Assembly (NCBI GenBank): GCA_031262165.1
Contig: JAISIF010000157.1
Coordinates: 1 to 54,470, forward strand
DNA length: 54,470 nucleotides
Source: Myxococcales bacterium
GTDB lineage: Bacteria > Myxococcota > Myxococcia > Myxococcales > UBA5297
Direction of reading: 5' to 3'
Shown: piece by piece, positions 6,612-53,606 of the stretch
How positions within the stretch are numbered: the stretch's first letter is position 1
How the letters are laid out: every line of letters starts with the position of its first letter
The notes under the pieces: model-generated
Told to the model about the DNA's origin: nothing
The model's input: only the letters and a program-made list of their open reading frames with translations
Databases searched by the model: none
Made by a program: the position numbers and the translations under genes

Positions 6612-6764
6612 CAAGGACTTATCCCTCCATCAGGAGCGAGCAACGCGAAGGACTGGGAAAGCCAGAAGAGGCGCGAGGCTTTGAACTTCCAGACGGAAGT
6701 GAAGCGCGAAGCAACGAGGGTTGGCGTTTCACGGACGAGCGGGGCGACGGGATGAATGCTTGAT
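6612..6764 (+). repeat. MITE-like interspersed repeat, copy 1
   Basis: The left end reads AAGGACTTATCCCTCC and the right end GGGATGAATGCTTGATAC, a decayed version of the inverted ends seen in the other copies. The interior (GCGAAGCAACGAGGGTTGGC, TTCACGGACGAGCGGGGCGA) aligns with the copies at 26605, 36706, 42807 and 43334. Confidence 0.8.
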
Positions 6765-25353: not shown

Positions 25354-26409
25354 ATGAGCCCCCGCATCACGGCCTGGCTGGATTGCTGGCTGTCGAGGCG
25401 AGACGCTCCGAAAGCGCGATTTCCCTTGAGACGATTCGAAGTCTTCAGAGCTCAGCGAAGCACCCCTCGCGGCGCAGGCGATGACCAGAGTTCGAGGAGG
25501 CAGGCGCGTTGGCGCCGCATCTCGGTCCTGGGCCTGCCGCTCCTGCTGGCCAGCCTCACGGCGCTCGCCTGTTCACACGCAGGGCACGGCCAGGCTTCCT
25601 CGATGGACAGCGCCCCCCCACCGCCGAAGAGCGCGGATCCGATCGAGCGCCCGCGCGCGCCTGAGCCGATGCCCGCCGTGCTCGCTCAGAGTGTGCGCAT
25701 CCTCGTCTTCGAAGACGGCCAGATCGCACGCAGTGGTTCTGGCGTGGTCCTCGGTTCACGCCCTTTGTCTGCCGACGATGACCAGCACCAGCGCGCCGAG
25801 GCGCTCGCGCGCAACGTCATCGTCACCAACGCCCACGTGGTGGCGCCGCAGAAGCCGAACGAAGCCCTGCGCTACCGCGTCATCCTGGAGAGCCCGCGTC
25901 CAGATGGACACAGCGTGGAGTTCGAGGCGCTCCTCCTCGCGCTCGGCCAGGCCCCGAGCATGGACCTCGCGCTCCTCACCTTTGATGGGCCACGCCTCAC
26001 GCCAGCCCAACTCGCCAAGCCAGAAGAGCTGAGCGTCGGCAGCGCGCTGTTCGCCATCGGCGCGCCCTATGGCCGCGAGCTGTCGGTCTCTGCTGGCATC
26101 CTCAGTCGCGTCGATTACGAGCGCGGTCCAGGCGGCGAGATCCGCGCGGCGCTGCTCAAGACCGACGCCTCCATCGGCTACGGCGCCTCGGGCGGCGGGC
26201 TCTTCTCCCGCGAGAGCGGCCACCTCGTCGGCATCATCGAAGGCTATCGGACGGCCAAACTCTCCTTCCCCGTCGACGGCATGCTCTACTCGTTCGACAT
26301 CCCCATGCCCGGCGAGACGTTCGCCGCGCCTTCCGAGAAGCTCCTCCGCTTCGTCCAGGAACAGGGCTTGGGAGAGGTATTGGAATCGAGTGTGTCGAAT
26401 GAGCCGTGA
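25354..26409 (+). CDS. Trypsin-like serine protease lipoprotein
   Basis: The chymotrypsin fold triad is visible as His in VIVTNAHVV, Asp in APSMDLALL and Ser in GYGASGGGLF. The Ser motif is GASGG rather than the usual GNSGG but keeps the oxyanion glycines. A signal ending LASLTALAC suggests lipidation, followed by a Pro-rich linker. No PDZ domain follows, unlike DegP. The start is unsure: ATG 25354 gives a long Arg-rich leader before the hydrophobic stretch, and a non-ATG start closer to it is possible. Likely periplasmic. Confidence 0.78.
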   Translation: MSPRITAWLDCWLSRRDAPKARFPLRRFEVFRAQRSTPRGAGDDQSSRRQARWRRISVLGLPLLLASLTALACSHAGHGQASSMDSAPPPPKSADPIERPRAPEPMPAVLAQSVRILVFEDGQIARSGSGVVLGSRPLSADDDQHQRAEALARNVIVTNAHVVAPQKPNEALRYRVILESPRPDGHSVEFEALLLALGQAPSMDLALLTFDGPRLTPAQLAKPEELSVGSALFAIGAPYGRELSVSAGILSRVDYERGPGGEIRAALLKTDASIGYGASGGGLFSRESGHLVGIIEGYRTAKLSFPVDGMLYSFDIPMPGETFAAPSEKLLRFVQEQGLGEVLESSVSNEP

Positions 26410-26448
26410 AATGTGACGAATCGATAATACGTCTTCGACAAACGAACC

Positions 26449-26538
26449 GTCATTGTGAGGAACGAAGTGACGAAACAATCCATCGACACTTTGCCTCGAC
26501 AAACAAAAGGGATTGCTTCGCTTCGCTCGCAATGATGG
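26449..26538. repeat. CATTGCGAGG...CGCAATGA inverted-repeat element, copy 1
   Basis: The left arm GTCATTGTGAGGAACGAAGT (continuing GACGAAACAATCC) pairs with the right arm GGATTGCTTCGCTTCGCTCG (continuing CAATGATGG). A fuller copy lies at 43117-43211 and half copies lie at 28873 and 41918. This inverted pair recurs in many bacterial genomes as a non-autonomous element. Confidence 0.75.
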
Positions 26539-26604
26539 TTCATTGAACACATCATTGAAATGAATCGACCTGTTCCAAAACCGCATCCGCGCAAAAGGTC
26601 TTTC

Positions 26605-26767
26605 TAAGGATTTATTCCTATTAGGACCTTTGCAGCGCGAAGGACGGGGCATGTCAGAAGAGGCACGAGGCGGGGGAACTTCCAGACGAAAGTGAAGCGC
26701 GAAGCAACGACGGCTGGCGTTTCACGGACGAGCTTTGGCGACGGAATGATTGAGGGATAAATCCTTA
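26605..26767 (+). repeat. MITE-like interspersed repeat, copy 2
   Basis: The ends TAAGGATTTATTCC and GGGATAAATCCTTA are nearly perfect inverted repeats. The interior shares GAAGCGCGAAGCAACG and GGCTGGCGTTTCACGGACGA with copy 1. Confidence 0.85.
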
Positions 26768-34249: not shown

Positions 34250-35487
34250 AGGTCCTGATGTTGCTCTCGTATCCGGGGCTGACCGGCCCGGCCGAGCTGG
34301 CGCTGAGCGACGCGCGGGGCCTGCGCGAGGCGGGGCACACGGTCCTGTTCGGCTGCGACACGCGGCGCGATTTGAAAAAGATCGAGCGCTCGGTGTGCGC
34401 CGATGGAACGCAGGACTTTGGCGACACGGCGTCCGCCGTCGATCCGCTCGCCCACCAGGACTTCGCGCGCGCCATCGACGCGGCTGGCTTCGAGCGCATG
34501 GCCGAGCTGACGCTGTGCAAGAGCAAACCGACGCCCCTGGAGCTGGCGCGCGACGTGTGGAGCCTGCGTCGCCGCATGGAGGGCGCGGACATCGTTCACA
34601 CGCGCTTCTCGCACGAGCTGCTCGTCGCGCTCGCGGCAGCAAAACTTTCGAGGCGGCCACCGCGCGTCGTCCACAGCGTCGAGAAGCCGCCGACCAAGGG
34701 TGGGCTCTGGGCCCTGAGGGCCGCGGACGCGCTCGTCCTGCCGAGCCGCCACGCGCTGGAGCGCCTCGTCCAAGTCCAGGGCTCGGGCACCGCTCTGCGT
34801 GAAGAGCGGCTCCATGTCCTGCCGGGCCGCGTGGATGGCGCGCGCTTCACGCCAGGGGATGGGAGCGCCCTGCGCGCCGAGCTGAACCTGCCGAGCGACG
34901 CGCTCGTCTTTGGCATCGTCTCGCGCATCAAGATCGAGCGGCGCCACGAGCTGTTCCTACGCGCCTTTGCCCAGGTCTCGACCGCGCTGCCCAACGCTCG
35001 ATTGTGCGTCGTGGGTCGAGGTGAACACAGGCCAGCCATCGAGGCGCTCGTCGATGAGCTCGGCCTGCGCGAGCGCGCCGTGTTCTCGGGCTATCGGGCG
35101 GGCGACGAGCTGGTGACGGCCTATCGCGCGCTCGACGCGCAGGTGTGGCTCGTCCAGGGCAACGATGGGACGAGCCGAGCCGTGCTCGAAGCGCTCGCGT
35201 GCGGCACGCCGGTCATCGCGGGCAGCGGCGGTGCGCAGGCCGAGGTGGTGCGCGATGGCCTCGATGGCCGCGTGGTGCCGCTCGATCCCGCGTGGACGCC
35301 GGGCATGGCCTCGAGCCGTGAGGAGCTCGACGCGCTCGCCCGCGCGCTGCTCGACCTGGCCGATCGCGATCGACGCGAGGCCATGCGGCAGAGCGCACGG
35401 CAGCGGGCACAGGCGTTCTCACCGGCCGCTCGGGCCGAGGGCTTGCGCCGGATTTATGAAGGCCTGTCGCCTGTTGAGGCCGGATGA
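34246..35487 (+). CDS. Family 4-type glycosyltransferase
   Basis: A 413-aa GT-B protein with N-terminal MKVLMLLSYPGLTGPAELAL, a linker, and C-terminal nucleotide-sugar part (FGIVSRIKIERRHELFL, LCVVGRGEHRPAIEAL, GTSRAVLEALACGTPVIA). The last gives the family's spaced acidic motif. It starts at GTG 34246 inside the previous stop. The rfaE1-rfaE2-GT2-GT4 order points to LPS core or O-chain assembly; the sugar is unknown. Confidence 0.88.
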   Translation: MKVLMLLSYPGLTGPAELALSDARGLREAGHTVLFGCDTRRDLKKIERSVCADGTQDFGDTASAVDPLAHQDFARAIDAAGFERMAELTLCKSKPTPLELARDVWSLRRRMEGADIVHTRFSHELLVALAAAKLSRRPPRVVHSVEKPPTKGGLWALRAADALVLPSRHALERLVQVQGSGTALREERLHVLPGRVDGARFTPGDGSALRAELNLPSDALVFGIVSRIKIERRHELFLRAFAQVSTALPNARLCVVGRGEHRPAIEALVDELGLRERAVFSGYRAGDELVTAYRALDAQVWLVQGNDGTSRAVLEALACGTPVIAGSGGAQAEVVRDGLDGRVVPLDPAWTPGMASSREELDALARALLDLADRDRREAMRQSARQRAQAFSPAARAEGLRRIYEGLSPVEAG

Positions 35488-35623
35488 GCGGCGCTCGACG
35501 GTCGTGATGTTGTAAAGAGCACGCCCTCGCGCCGGATGGGCCCCTCCTCCGCCCGGCGGAAGATCCCCAGATTTCATCCGCGCCATGGTGCCAGAGATTC
35601 TCTGGCAAGGAGCCCTTCCAAGA

Positions 35624-36643
35624 ATGAATCAACCTGCCCGCGTCGAGCTCGCCGATCCCGAAATCCTCCGAACCCTGTGCGGTGGCCAAAGCGAAAATCT
35701 GAAACTCATCGGAAAGAAGCTCGGCGTCAGCGTTGGCCAGCGCGGCTCCTGTCTCCTCGTGAGCGGCGCGACCGAGGCCGTGGCCTTTGCCGACCGCCTG
35801 CTGCGCGAGCTCTACGAGCTGCTCCAGCGCGGCTACCGGCTCTATCCTGAGGACATCGATCAGGCCATCAAGACGCTCTCCCTGGATGAACGCGTGAGCT
35901 TGCGCGACATCTTCATGGACTCGGTCTTCGTCTCGAACCGCAAGCGCGCCATCGCCCCCAAGGGGCTCGCGCAGAAGCGCTACGTCGAGGCCATCCGGCG
36001 CCACGACATCGTGTTTGGCATTGGCCCGGCCGGCACGGGCAAGACCTACCTGGCGATGGCCATGGCCGCCGCCGCGCTGGTCGAGCACCGCGTCAAGCGC
36101 CTCATCCTCACACGGCCTGCGGTCGAGGCGGGCGAGAAGCTCGGCTTCCTGCCCGGTGACCTGGCCGAGAAGATCAACCCCTACCTGCGGCCGCTCTACG
36201 ACGCGCTCCACGACATGATGGACGCCGAGAAGGTCGCCTCGCTCATGGAACGGGGGACCATCGAGGTCGCGCCGCTGGCCTTCATGCGCGGCCGGACGCT
36301 CAACGACGCCTTCGTCATCCTCGACGAGGCGCAGAACACCACGCCCGAGCAGATGAAGATGTTCCTGACGCGTCTCGGCTTTGGATCGCGCGCCGTGGTA
36401 ACGGGCGACATCACGCAGATCGACCTGCCGACAGGCCAGCCCTCGGGGCTCATCGCGGTCCGCGAGATCCTGCAAGATGTCGAGGGACTGCGCTTCTGCC
36501 AATTCAGCGAAGTGGATGTGGTCCGCCATCCGCTGGTCCAGGAGATCGTCCAGGCCTACGAGCGCTGGGACCTCCGGCGCAAAACGCCGCCATCCAAGCC
36601 GCCATCCAAAGCGGTGATGGCCGACGAACCGAATCCCAGCTGA
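35624..36643 (+). CDS. phoH: PhoH-like ATPase
   Basis: 339 aa from ATG 35624. It has the KH-like N-terminal part ([20 protein letters not shown]), Walker [33 protein letters not shown], Walker [15 protein letters not shown] and [12 protein letters not shown]. This is the YbeZ-type PhoH, linked in other bacteria to ybeY and ribosome/RNA metabolism. No ybeY follows here; instead there is a MITE-like copy and an RlmI-like gene. AAGGAG lies 12 bases before the ATG. Confidence 0.93.
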
Positions 36644-36705
36644 GTCGTCGCTCATCCAGGCGATGTCGACGGGCAGGCACAGGGGCTTTGCCCCTCTACG
36701 ATTCA

Positions 36706-36873
36706 TAAGGACTTATCCCTTCATGAGGACCGAGCAACGCGAAGGCCGGGGAATGTCAAATGTCAGACGAGGCGCGAGGCAGGAGCTTCCCGAGGGAAAT
36801 GAAGAGCGAAGCAACGAAGACTGGCGTTTCACGGACAAGTGGGGCGACGAGATAATTCATGGATAAGCCCCAA
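36706..36873 (+). repeat. MITE-like interspersed repeat, copy 3
   Basis: The ends TAAGGACTTATCCC and GGATAAGCCCC are imperfect inverted repeats. The interior carries GAGCGAAGCAACGAAGACTG and GCGTTTCACGGACAAGTGGG. An AGGGGCTTTGCCCCT hairpin lies just upstream (36681-36695). Confidence 0.8.
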
Positions 36874-42806: not shown

Positions 42807-42968
42807 TTAGGGCTTATCCCTCGATTAAGACCTTTGCACCGCGAAGGACAGGGAAAGCCAGAAGAGGCACGAGGCGGGAGCTTCCAGAGGGAAATGACCA
42901 ACGAAGCAACGAAGGCTGGCGTTTTACCGATAATTGGGGCGACCGGATAATCGAGGGATAAGTTCTTA
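42807..42968 (+). repeat. MITE-like interspersed repeat, copy 4 (best-kept ends)
   Basis: The left end TTAGGGCTTATCCCTCGATT and right end AATCGAGGGATAAGTTCTTA pair in most positions over 19 bases, with TTA on both outer sides. The interior shares the GCGAAGGACAGGGAA, GAAGAGGCACGAGGCGGGAG and AACGAAGCAACGAAGGCTGG blocks. Confidence 0.88.
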
Positions 42969-43259: not shown

Positions 43260-43579
43260 AATGATCCCTCGGCAAAGCAGGGGGCTTTTCGCCGCGTTTT
43301 TCAAACATTCTCTGTCAGAGTTCTAATTCCGACTTAGGCCTTATTCCTTGGGACTTATCCCTGAATTAGGACCTTTGCACCGCGAAGGACGGGGAATGTC
43401 AGAAGAGCGAAGCAACGAAGGCTGGCGTTTCACGGAAGAGCGGGGCGACGGTGTAATTAATGAATAAGGCCTTAAATCATGCGCTAAAAGGCAAGCTCTT
43501 TTAAAATTGTAGTTTTCATGTGCTCGCCCTTACAGAAATATGGGGTGAAGCCAATTGCCATAAAGGTCAAACCTTTTCA
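43260..43579 (-). repeat. Dispersed repeat R5, copy A, interrupted by a MITE-like element
   Basis: Its reverse complement runs from ACCTTTATGGCAATTGGCTT, then CATATTTCTGTAAGGGCGAG, to AGTCGGAATTAGAA and GAAAAACGCGGCGAAAAGCC. It aligns with uninterrupted copies at 53373-53515 and, for the second half, 52026-52156. MITE-like copy 5 interrupts it at 43334-43474. Confidence 0.85.
43334..43474 (+). repeat. MITE-like interspersed repeat, copy 5, with TTA on both sides
   Basis: The inverted ends are GGCCTTATTC and GAATAAGGCC, flanked by TTA at 43334-43336 and 43472-43474. In the uninterrupted R5 copies the same place has a single TTA. About 30 internal bases are missing compared with copy 4. The ends also include a second nested GGACTTATCCC. 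Confidence 0.88.
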
Positions 43580-43615
43580 GTCCCCCGGCAAAGCCAGGGG
43601 TTTTTCTATTAAACC

Positions 43616-52023: not shown

Positions 52024-52156
52024 AAGAGAACTTGCCTTTTCGCGCATGATTTAAGTCGGAATTAGAAGTCAGGCAGAGAATATTTGAAAAACGCCGCGAA
52101 AAGGCCTCTTTGAGAGGCCAGCGGCAAAAAGTCCCCGGCTTTGCCAGGGGATCATT
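52024..52156 (+). repeat. Dispersed repeat R5, copy B
   Basis: AGAACTTGCCTTTTCGCGCA through AGTCGGAATTAGAAGTCAGG to AAACGCCGCGAAAAGG. The part from CCTTTTCGCG (52035) to CGCGAAAAGG (52104) has perfect 10-bp inverted ends and an uninterrupted TTTAAG centre. A CCCCGGCTTTGCCAGGGG hairpin follows. Confidence 0.85.
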
Positions 52157-52294: not shown

Positions 52295-53311
52295 ATGAAC
52301 TTTCAGGAAGTAGCGGAACTGATAAAAAAAAGCAAACTGAGGAGAAGAGCGGGTAAGCTCGTGGAGGCCGAAAGAGATCTCAATGTCGCCCTAGAATTAT
52401 TAGAAAAAACATCTAACGAAGAAACAGACGACTGTAAGATTTATAAAGCGAAGGGCCTGATAGCCCAGGGCGATTTGAAGAGAAGACTGGGCGAGTTCGA
52501 GGAAGCCGAAAGAGATCTCAATGTCGCCCTAGAATTATTAAAAAAAACACCTAACGAAGAAGCCGACGACTGTAAGATTTATAAAGCGAAGGGCCTGATA
52601 GCCCGGGGCGATTTGAAGAGAAGACTGGGCGAGTTCAAGGAAGCCGAAAAAGATCTCAAAGGCGCTCTAAAATTATTAGAAAAAATATCTAACGAAGAAA
52701 CAAACGACTGTAAGATTTATGAAGCGGATGCCTTGAGACTCAAGGGCGATTTGAAGCTGATTTCCTTGGGGAGATTAACGGAACGACAGAATGAAGTTAA
52801 AACTGCTTTAAATTATTATGAAGAAGCCCGTGATTTGTGCCAGAAAGACAATCCTAATAATGAACTCCAGAAGCTAAAGACTAATTCTGAAAAAGAGATT
52901 AAAGAAATTGAGAAAGCTGATGAAATATATAAAAGGGACACAAACGATGCACTCATCAAAGCTCAGAAAGGATACGCTGATGACGCAGGACGCTACTCAA
53001 AGGGATGTGCTATTCTTTCCATAGCATGTATGATTTTTGCTATAATTTTTTTATTTTTATTCCTTTTTTGTCCAGATGTGTTCAATATATGTATGTGTGT
53101 TTCTGAACCCAAGCAATCCTGTCAACCATCGGAAACCTTTATTCTTAAGTTTTCTCTTGGTATTCTCTTTTTTATTCCGGCATTCTACTCTTCTAAATTA
53201 TCTAAAAGATGCCATGACCAGGAGAAACAATACAGGGAGCTGGAAATTAAAATGAGATGTGTCGGGCCATCTTTCAAGGAAATCCAGAGTAGCGATAAAG
53301 AAGGAGCATAG
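52295..53311 (+). CDS. Helical (TPR-like) repeat protein with two C-terminal membrane helices
   Basis: 338 aa. Three 46-residue repeats from about residue 25 (EAERDLNVALELLEKTSNEE, CKIYKAKGLIAQGDLKRRLG) resemble TPR/SLATT-like helical hairpins. A charged coiled stretch is followed by two membrane helices (AILSIACMIFAIIFLFLFLF and FILKFSLGILFFIPAFYSS). There is no signal peptide, so the repeats are probably cytosolic. The function is unknown. Its AT-rich composition and flanking direct copies of repeat R5 (B and C) suggest a recently acquired or mobile gene. The ribosome-binding site is weak. Confidence 0.7.
   Translation: MNFQEVAELIKKSKLRRRAGKLVEAERDLNVALELLEKTSNEETDDCKIYKAKGLIAQGDLKRRLGEFEEAERDLNVALELLKKTPNEEADDCKIYKAKGLIARGDLKRRLGEFKEAEKDLKGALKLLEKISNEETNDCKIYEADALRLKGDLKLISLGRLTERQNEVKTALNYYEEARDLCQKDNPNNELQKLKTNSEKEIKEIEKADEIYKRDTNDALIKAQKGYADDAGRYSKGCAILSIACMIFAIIFLFLFLFCPDVFNICMCVSEPKQSCQPSETFILKFSLGILFFIPAFYSSKLSKRCHDQEKQYRELEIKMRCVGPSFKEIQSSDKEGA
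52367..52780 (+). repeat. Three tandem 138-bp repeats within the helical-repeat gene
   Basis: Units begin at 52367, 52505 and 52643 (GCCGAAAGAGATCTCAATGT and variants). The first two are almost identical in DNA and the third is more diverged, so at least one duplication is recent. Confidence 0.9.
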
Positions 53312-53372
53312 TTGGATTTCCTCAAAAGCCTTTTTATCACCAAGTCGCGAAAAAGACGACCCAAAGGTTTAA

Positions 53373-53515
53373 CCTTTATGGTAATTGGCTTTACTCATAT
53401 TTCTGTAAGGGTGAGCACATAAAAACTATAATTTTAAGAGAACTTGCCTTTTCGCGCATGATTTAAGTCGGAATTAGAAGTCAGGCAGAGAATATTGAAA
53501 AACGCTGCGAAAAGG
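53373..53515 (+). repeat. Dispersed repeat R5, copy C
   Basis: Runs from AAGGTTTAACCTTTATGGTA through CATATTTCTGTAAGGGTGAG to AACGCTGCGAAAAGG. It carries the uninterrupted CATGATTTAAGTCGG site. It is in the same orientation as copy B and reversed relative to copy A. Confidence 0.85.
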
Positions 53516-53606
53516 CTCTTTAGGGCCAATGACGAGGTGTCGTAGCGCCGACCTGAGGCCCGCTGTCATTTTACAATCTGAATGAATGTCGGACGTTTTC
53601 CTGGAA

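Follow-up and report, generated by a model that had tools for sequence, protein, structure and literature searches.

A MITE-like element of 135 bp is inserted in one copy of the R5 repeat and is bounded on both sides by TTA, a triplet present only once in uninterrupted R5 copies. It belongs to a new, IS5/IS1031-type family of MITEs, which is real, well defined and ordinary in type. The window, i.e., the whole analyzed stretch of 54,470 nucleotides, represents contig C38 of a 3.02-Mb genome comprising 214 contigs, and the insertion of a high-copy bacterial MITE family was proven cleanly within this single assembly. Furthermore, the family could be tied to an IS5/IS1031-type parent. The mechanism itself is already established; the family provides a useful case of small IS derivatives filling a small bacterial genome and interrupting other repeats.

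Insertion of the element into R5 copy A

The following features of the window define the filled site and its uninterrupted counterparts:

43337..43471, plus strand: copy 5 of the MITE-like element, 135 bp with a shortened interior and the ends GGCCTTATTC and GAATAAGGCC
43334..43336, no strand: left TTA of the target-site duplication, a single TTA in the uninterrupted R5 copies
43472..43474, no strand: right TTA of the target-site duplication, deduced from the sequence read and the alignment of the R5 copies of the window
43285..43336, minus strand: 3' part of R5 copy A (R5 orientation)
43472..43590, minus strand: 5' part of R5 copy A (R5 orientation)
52024..52104, plus strand: R5 copy B, without its 5' part, uninterrupted, empty site CATGATTTAAGTCGG
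53363..53521, plus strand: R5 copy C, uninterrupted, empty site CATGATTTAAGTCGG

An earlier note on this DNA had proposed that copy 5 interrupts R5 copy A, whereas the other two R5 copies of the window are uninterrupted at that spot. Alignment of the three copies confirmed both statements, revealing a single gap of 138 columns which corresponds to the 135-bp element plus one 3-bp repeat. The filled site (43328-43480) consists of CCGACTTA, the element from GGCCTTATTC to GAATAAGGCC, and TTAAATC; the plus strand across copy 5 accordingly passes from CTAATTCCGACTTA into GGCCTTATTCC and leaves the element from GAATAAGGCC into TTAAATCATGCGC. At the insertion point, copies B and C read GATTTAAGTCGG without interruption (also given as GCGCATGATTTAAGTCGGAATTAG for both), with one TTA each. 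The span of 43334-43474 given in the earlier note takes in both TTA copies, the element proper being confined to 43337-43471. With 135 bp, copy 5 is shorter than typical family copies of 155-158 bp. The alignment thus supports the reading that a MITE-like element entered R5 and duplicated TTA in doing so.

The target-site duplication of the family

In order to characterize the duplication for the whole family, a profile was built from copies of 128-164 bp. In the sequence stretches covered, it detected 86 full-length copies after removal of redundancy, most of them 155-158 bp long. Identical 3-bp flanks were found for 35 of these 86 copies, compared to 22.1 expected from flank composition (permutation p ~0.0002), namely 23 TTA, 10 TAA, 1 TCA and 1 TGA, so that the genome-wide flank comparison proposed in the earlier note yielded the anticipated enrichment. 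Among the copies featuring TNA on both sides (n=56), 35 are identical as opposed to 22 expected, a value reached in 0 of 20,000 permutations. Identical flanks of 4 to 9 bp were observed for none of the 86 copies. Since 3-bp identity is enriched and identical 4-bp flanks are absent, the duplication is TNA, 3 bp in length, and the 86 copies show a flank preference of Y-TNA-R. Hence, of the originally suggested duplication of "TTA (or TA)", TTA holds for the R5 site and TA does not; as the target of the family, TTA has to be replaced by TNA.

A perfect duplication is kept in 41% of the copies and absent in 51 of 86, broken TNA triplets mostly showing single changes, e.g., CAA. Mismatch of the flanks did not track divergence of the copies from the consensus, and recombination between MITE copies may therefore contribute to mismatched flanks.

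A joined-flank search within the stretches examined uncovered five further MITE copies residing in other repeats that possess uninterrupted paralogues. Two of these, on C207 and C185, lie at TTA within copies of an IS5-type transposase, for which about ten uninterrupted paralogues are present. Another MITE (C188) occupies a TAA in the right end of a different IS, the paralogue of which on C152 is uninterrupted, and empty-site pairs were also obtained for MITEs on C90 (TAA) and C23 (TTA). These data bear on the alternative that the TTA pairs belong to the inverted repeat itself (TTA...TAA) and that the R5 gap arose in a different way, e.g., by deletion. Read from the outside inwards, TTA is indeed commoner than TAA at the ends, and some copies combine a left TTA with a right TAA. 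However, directly repeated triplets (TTA/TTA in 23 copies, TAA/TAA in 10) far exceed the TTA/TAA combination (6 copies), empty sites retain one triplet in several independent backgrounds, and TAA/TAA also flanks the IS on C107 and plasmid-borne IS5 elements described below. This alternative is highly improbable, and TTA as a component of the inverted repeat was rejected based on triplet statistics and empty sites. The 3-bp TNA duplication was thus retained.

Size, distribution and age of the family

The terminus TNAGGNCTTATYC has 237 exact matches genome-wide (120 forward and 117 reverse), compared to none for the reversed pattern, which is far beyond chance. Based on the fraction of exact ends among sampled copies, the copy number was estimated at roughly 230-265 (about 200 or more), a value that is approximate because the ends had themselves partly guided the choice of the sample. 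The terminus was absent from both congeners searched and reached at most three matches in any further relative searched; scanning genomes of other species for GGACTTATCCCTCAATTA returned just one hit, located in a Falkowbacteria MAG and interpreted as chance. With 237 exact ends here and none in two congeners, the family appears to represent a species-specific burst. Its members are short (below about 500 bp), non-coding, dispersed in multiple copies as deduced from these ends, and equipped with inverted repeats of approximately 18 bp, and they enclose no transposase; together with the target-site duplication, these are features of MITEs. Copies diverge from the consensus by about 10%, with a median nearest-neighbour identity of 0.91 and values of at least 0.95 in only two copies. 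The family gives the impression of an old, since decayed burst, which fits the observation that only 41% of the copies keep a perfect duplication.

Besides copy 5, the window harbors the following members:

42810..42965, plus strand: MITE copy, 156 bp, with TTA on either side (42807-42809 and 42966-42968)
36709..36870, plus strand: MITE copy, 162 bp, flanked by TAA and CAA, a decayed duplication
26608..26764, plus strand: MITE copy, 157 bp, flanked by TAA and TTA, mismatched
6615..6753, plus strand: MITE copy with a good left end and a decayed right end

Two of these copies adjoin predicted coding sequences. The TAA beside one MITE (36706-36709) overlaps a possible ATG of the minus-strand ORF 35213-36706, so that the MITE would supply the upstream region of this ORF. 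Moreover, the ATG of the minus-strand ORF 25756-26652 falls within the MITE copy 26608-26764; the real start of this ORF may be located further in, or the protein may have been lengthened by the MITE.

IS5-type elements as the putative parent

The MITE ends match those of IS5-family insertion sequences of the same genome, which encode DUF4096 and DDE_Tnp_1 domains. At the end of contig C190, TTTA is followed by GGACTTATCCCTAAATAAATTGAT and the beginning of a transposase gene, i.e., its ATG and N-terminal part (PF13340 DUF4096, E 4e-18; NF033580, NCBIfam IS5 family), after which the contig breaks off. In its first 12 bp, the left end of this IS is identical to the MITE consensus. Matches to PF13340, PF01609 and NF033580 identify IS5-type DDE transposases in elements with the same ends. 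PF07592 (ISAZ013) gave no match, a result that carries no information since the corresponding control search was likewise empty. Two contigs contain C-terminal fragments of a related IS: C86, at its end, and C152, where the right end AATTTATTCAGGGATAGACGC is included. Together with the N-terminus on C190, these fragments would constitute halves of one element.

A search for an intact autonomous copy with segments from the N-terminal, middle and C-terminal regions of the candidate IS recovered only fragments in the assembly. Likewise, a complete intact transposase gene with GGACTTATCCCT-type ends was not found in the assembly, the candidate IS being split over contig ends and decayed fragments. 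The transposase partner predicted in the earlier note is accordingly present in kind, albeit only as fragments. A hybrid locus (C190:27546-27780) joins the IS left end and the first 35 transposase codons to a MITE right end and is a possible intermediate in the birth of the MITE; homology between the MITE interior and the IS interior was found in this hybrid only.

A second IS5 element, complete in outline, was detected on C107. It comprises 945 bp, encodes DUF4096 and DDE_Tnp_1, and extends from GGACTTGTCC to GGATAAGCCC between two TAA triplets (the right end next to TAA also being given as GCGGATAAGCCC). Its transposase changes frame at an A8 run, corresponding either to a programmed frameshift, as in some IS5-family elements, or to decay. 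In addition, two short 3' fragments of the IS represented in the hybrid (C188:14931-15106 and C158:375-533) start right after a MITE and TNA with GGCGCGTAGATGG, their truncation point being identical at both loci.

Based on these results, the element is very probably a non-autonomous, non-coding MITE of an IS5-family (IS1031-type) IS, placed at TNA by a DDE transposase from elsewhere, with stagger repair doubling TNA. As judged from sequence features, an IS5/IS1031-type transposase would have moved these MITE copies in trans. Encoded elsewhere, it would recognize ends of approximately 18 bp (GGACTTATCCCTNRATTA) and cut out or copy the element, cut-and-paste versus replicative transposition being a conjectural part of the scheme. 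The element would then be joined to a TNA triplet, preferably YTNAR, opened by staggered cleavage, and repair of the 3-nt stagger would double TNA, i.e., TTA in R5.

The doubled left end of copy 5 and the filled R5 copies

Copy 5 has two left ends in succession (GGCCTTATTCCTTG followed by GGACTTATCCC), with a restart 14 bp further in:

43337..43350, plus strand: additional left-end fragment on the outer side, GGCCTTATTCCTTG; 43351 is the first base of the canonical left end GGACTTATCCCTGAATTAGG on the inner side

Offsets of 14 bp identical to that of copy 5 were encountered at two further loci, on C10 and C36, and offsets of 7 bp (GGACTTA-GGACTTATCC) at several loci, e.g., on C35 and C6. The consensus end, TNA-GGAC-TTA-TCCC-TNA, contains TNA sites at element positions 5-7 and 12-14. 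Copy 5 is best read as a composite: one MITE copy would have inserted into the end of another at an internal TNA site (positions 5-7 or 12-14), and recombination between the two interiors would subsequently have deleted the duplicate interior, leaving the doubled end. This order of events, nested insertion followed by recombination, is inferred from the arrangement of copy 5. A broader hypothesis, according to which the transposase prefers fixed TNA sites for re-insertion, including those within its own ends, the 7- and 14-bp offsets arise from self-targeting plus recombination, and R5 and the IS5 gene represent additional hot spots, is considered rather unlikely.

R5 occurs in about 15 copies genome-wide, those of the window being located at 43285-43590, 52024-52156 and 53363-53521, and has a core of approximately 160 bp. 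Among the copies spanning the insertion point, about a dozen are empty and three are filled, namely those of the window, C214 and C143, all three sharing the insertion base and the orientation of the MITE. R5 is often bounded by CCCCCGGCTTTGCCGGGGG hairpins. Two R5 subfamilies differ in their 3' ends, and all three MITE-filled copies belong to the subfamily featuring the shorter 3' end. Within the window, a gene encoding a TPR-repeat protein (52295-53311) lies between two directly repeated R5 copies. An orthologous empty site was not found in the two congeners, where neighboring genes align at 67-89% and the R5/MITE stretch itself does not.

The earlier note had also stated that a transposition product can be defined inside the window. 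The alignment bears this out for the insertion as such; reading it as a single event is too simple in view of the doubled left end of copy 5 and of the two other R5 copies that carry a MITE at exactly this base. Either the MITE entered one R5 copy and the composite then spread, implying that copy 5 is not fresh at this location and that its TTA duplication is real, but older, or the transposase returned repeatedly to one YTNAR site each of R5 and the IS5 gene, i.e., to an insertion hot spot. The former reading, to which slightly less than an even chance is given, accords with the filling of three R5 copies at one base in one orientation, with the filled R5 parts being among each other's closest relatives (0.89-0.915 identity vs. 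0.84 for all pairs), and with a C preceding TTA in both filled IS5 copies, which is missing from the empty paralogues compared. However, the MITEs in the three R5 copies are only 0.82-0.86 identical, compared to 0.83 for random MITE pairs, and are not mutual nearest neighbours, their nearest relatives being found elsewhere in the family. Moreover, the filled R5 copies resemble an empty copy on C18 (0.89) about as closely as they resemble one another, and the MITE tree holds too little signal, a single clade not being rejected (p-AU 0.81). Repeated choice of one site, which is regarded as plausible at somewhat below even odds, agrees with MITE sequences in the three filled copies being as different as unrelated copies, and with R5 copy C offering 18 TNA and 6 YTNAR sites, all three insertions having occurred at one; yet common descent fits the uniform orientation and the related R5 backbones equally well. 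The filled state of R5 may thus have spread with R5 instead of having arisen in copy A. Transposition into R5 at a TNA target with duplication of TTA is the reading retained for the site.

Comparison with known systems

Members of the IS1031 subgroup are reported to have a TNA target, a 3-bp repeat and a -1 frameshift (PMC12016507). The family described here shares the TNA target, the 3-bp duplication and a similar start of the ends (G-R-N-C-Y-T-R-T-C) with this subgroup (PMC12016507); the C107 IS shows a frame change between two ORFs, either programmed or due to decay. ISLrh, a representative of the IS1031 subgroup within the IS5 family, comprises 857 bp and has the ends GAACCTGTCTAGTATCT; in contrast to the subgroup, the window element lacks a transposase and has a size of 135-158 bp, and the ends diverge beyond approximately 10 bp. 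Duplications in the IS427 group are mostly 2 bp and sometimes 4 bp long. The parent matches the IS1031 subgroup by TNA target and 3-bp duplication rather than by transposase phylogeny, which leaves the IS427 group eligible. Plasmid-borne IS5 elements from Aminobacter (pBAM1), Azotobacter, Polaromonas and Aromatoleum (ISAzo38) possess GARCYTATCC-type ends between TAA triplets, and GAACTTATCCGTAAATAG-type ends flanked by TAA on both sides were present in five of seven plasmid IS5 relatives checked. Their transposases are 43-51% identical to that of C107. Unlike the MITE, these elements are full-length (~890-940 bp) and encode a transposase.

MITEAba12 of Acinetobacter, mobilized by ISAba12, is similarly tied to a resident IS via shared inverted repeats (PMC6382973), and approximately 40% of its copies keep duplications, compared to 41% here (PMC6382973). 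However, its duplications are 9 bp long without sequence preference, its end sequence is different, and its 90 copies are distributed over about 30 genomes (PMC6382973), as opposed to an estimated 230-265 copies in one genome here. Transposases of PIF/Harbinger-type elements and NuwaII (PHIS superfamily) are grouped with IS5, and these elements feature 3-bp duplications of TWA or of TNA between C and G (PMC4482050). Unlike the present family, they are eukaryotic and often encode a second protein, the likeness consisting in transposase grouping and target, not in element sequence. ERIC and Correia elements likewise represent small high-copy bacterial repeats with other sequences, likened here by description, not by alignment. 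With 711 ERIC copies in Photorhabdus and more than 120 Correia copies in N. gonorrhoeae (PMC10969869), the copy number of the present family is high for a 3-Mb genome, yet inside the range reported for bacterial repeats (PMC10969869).
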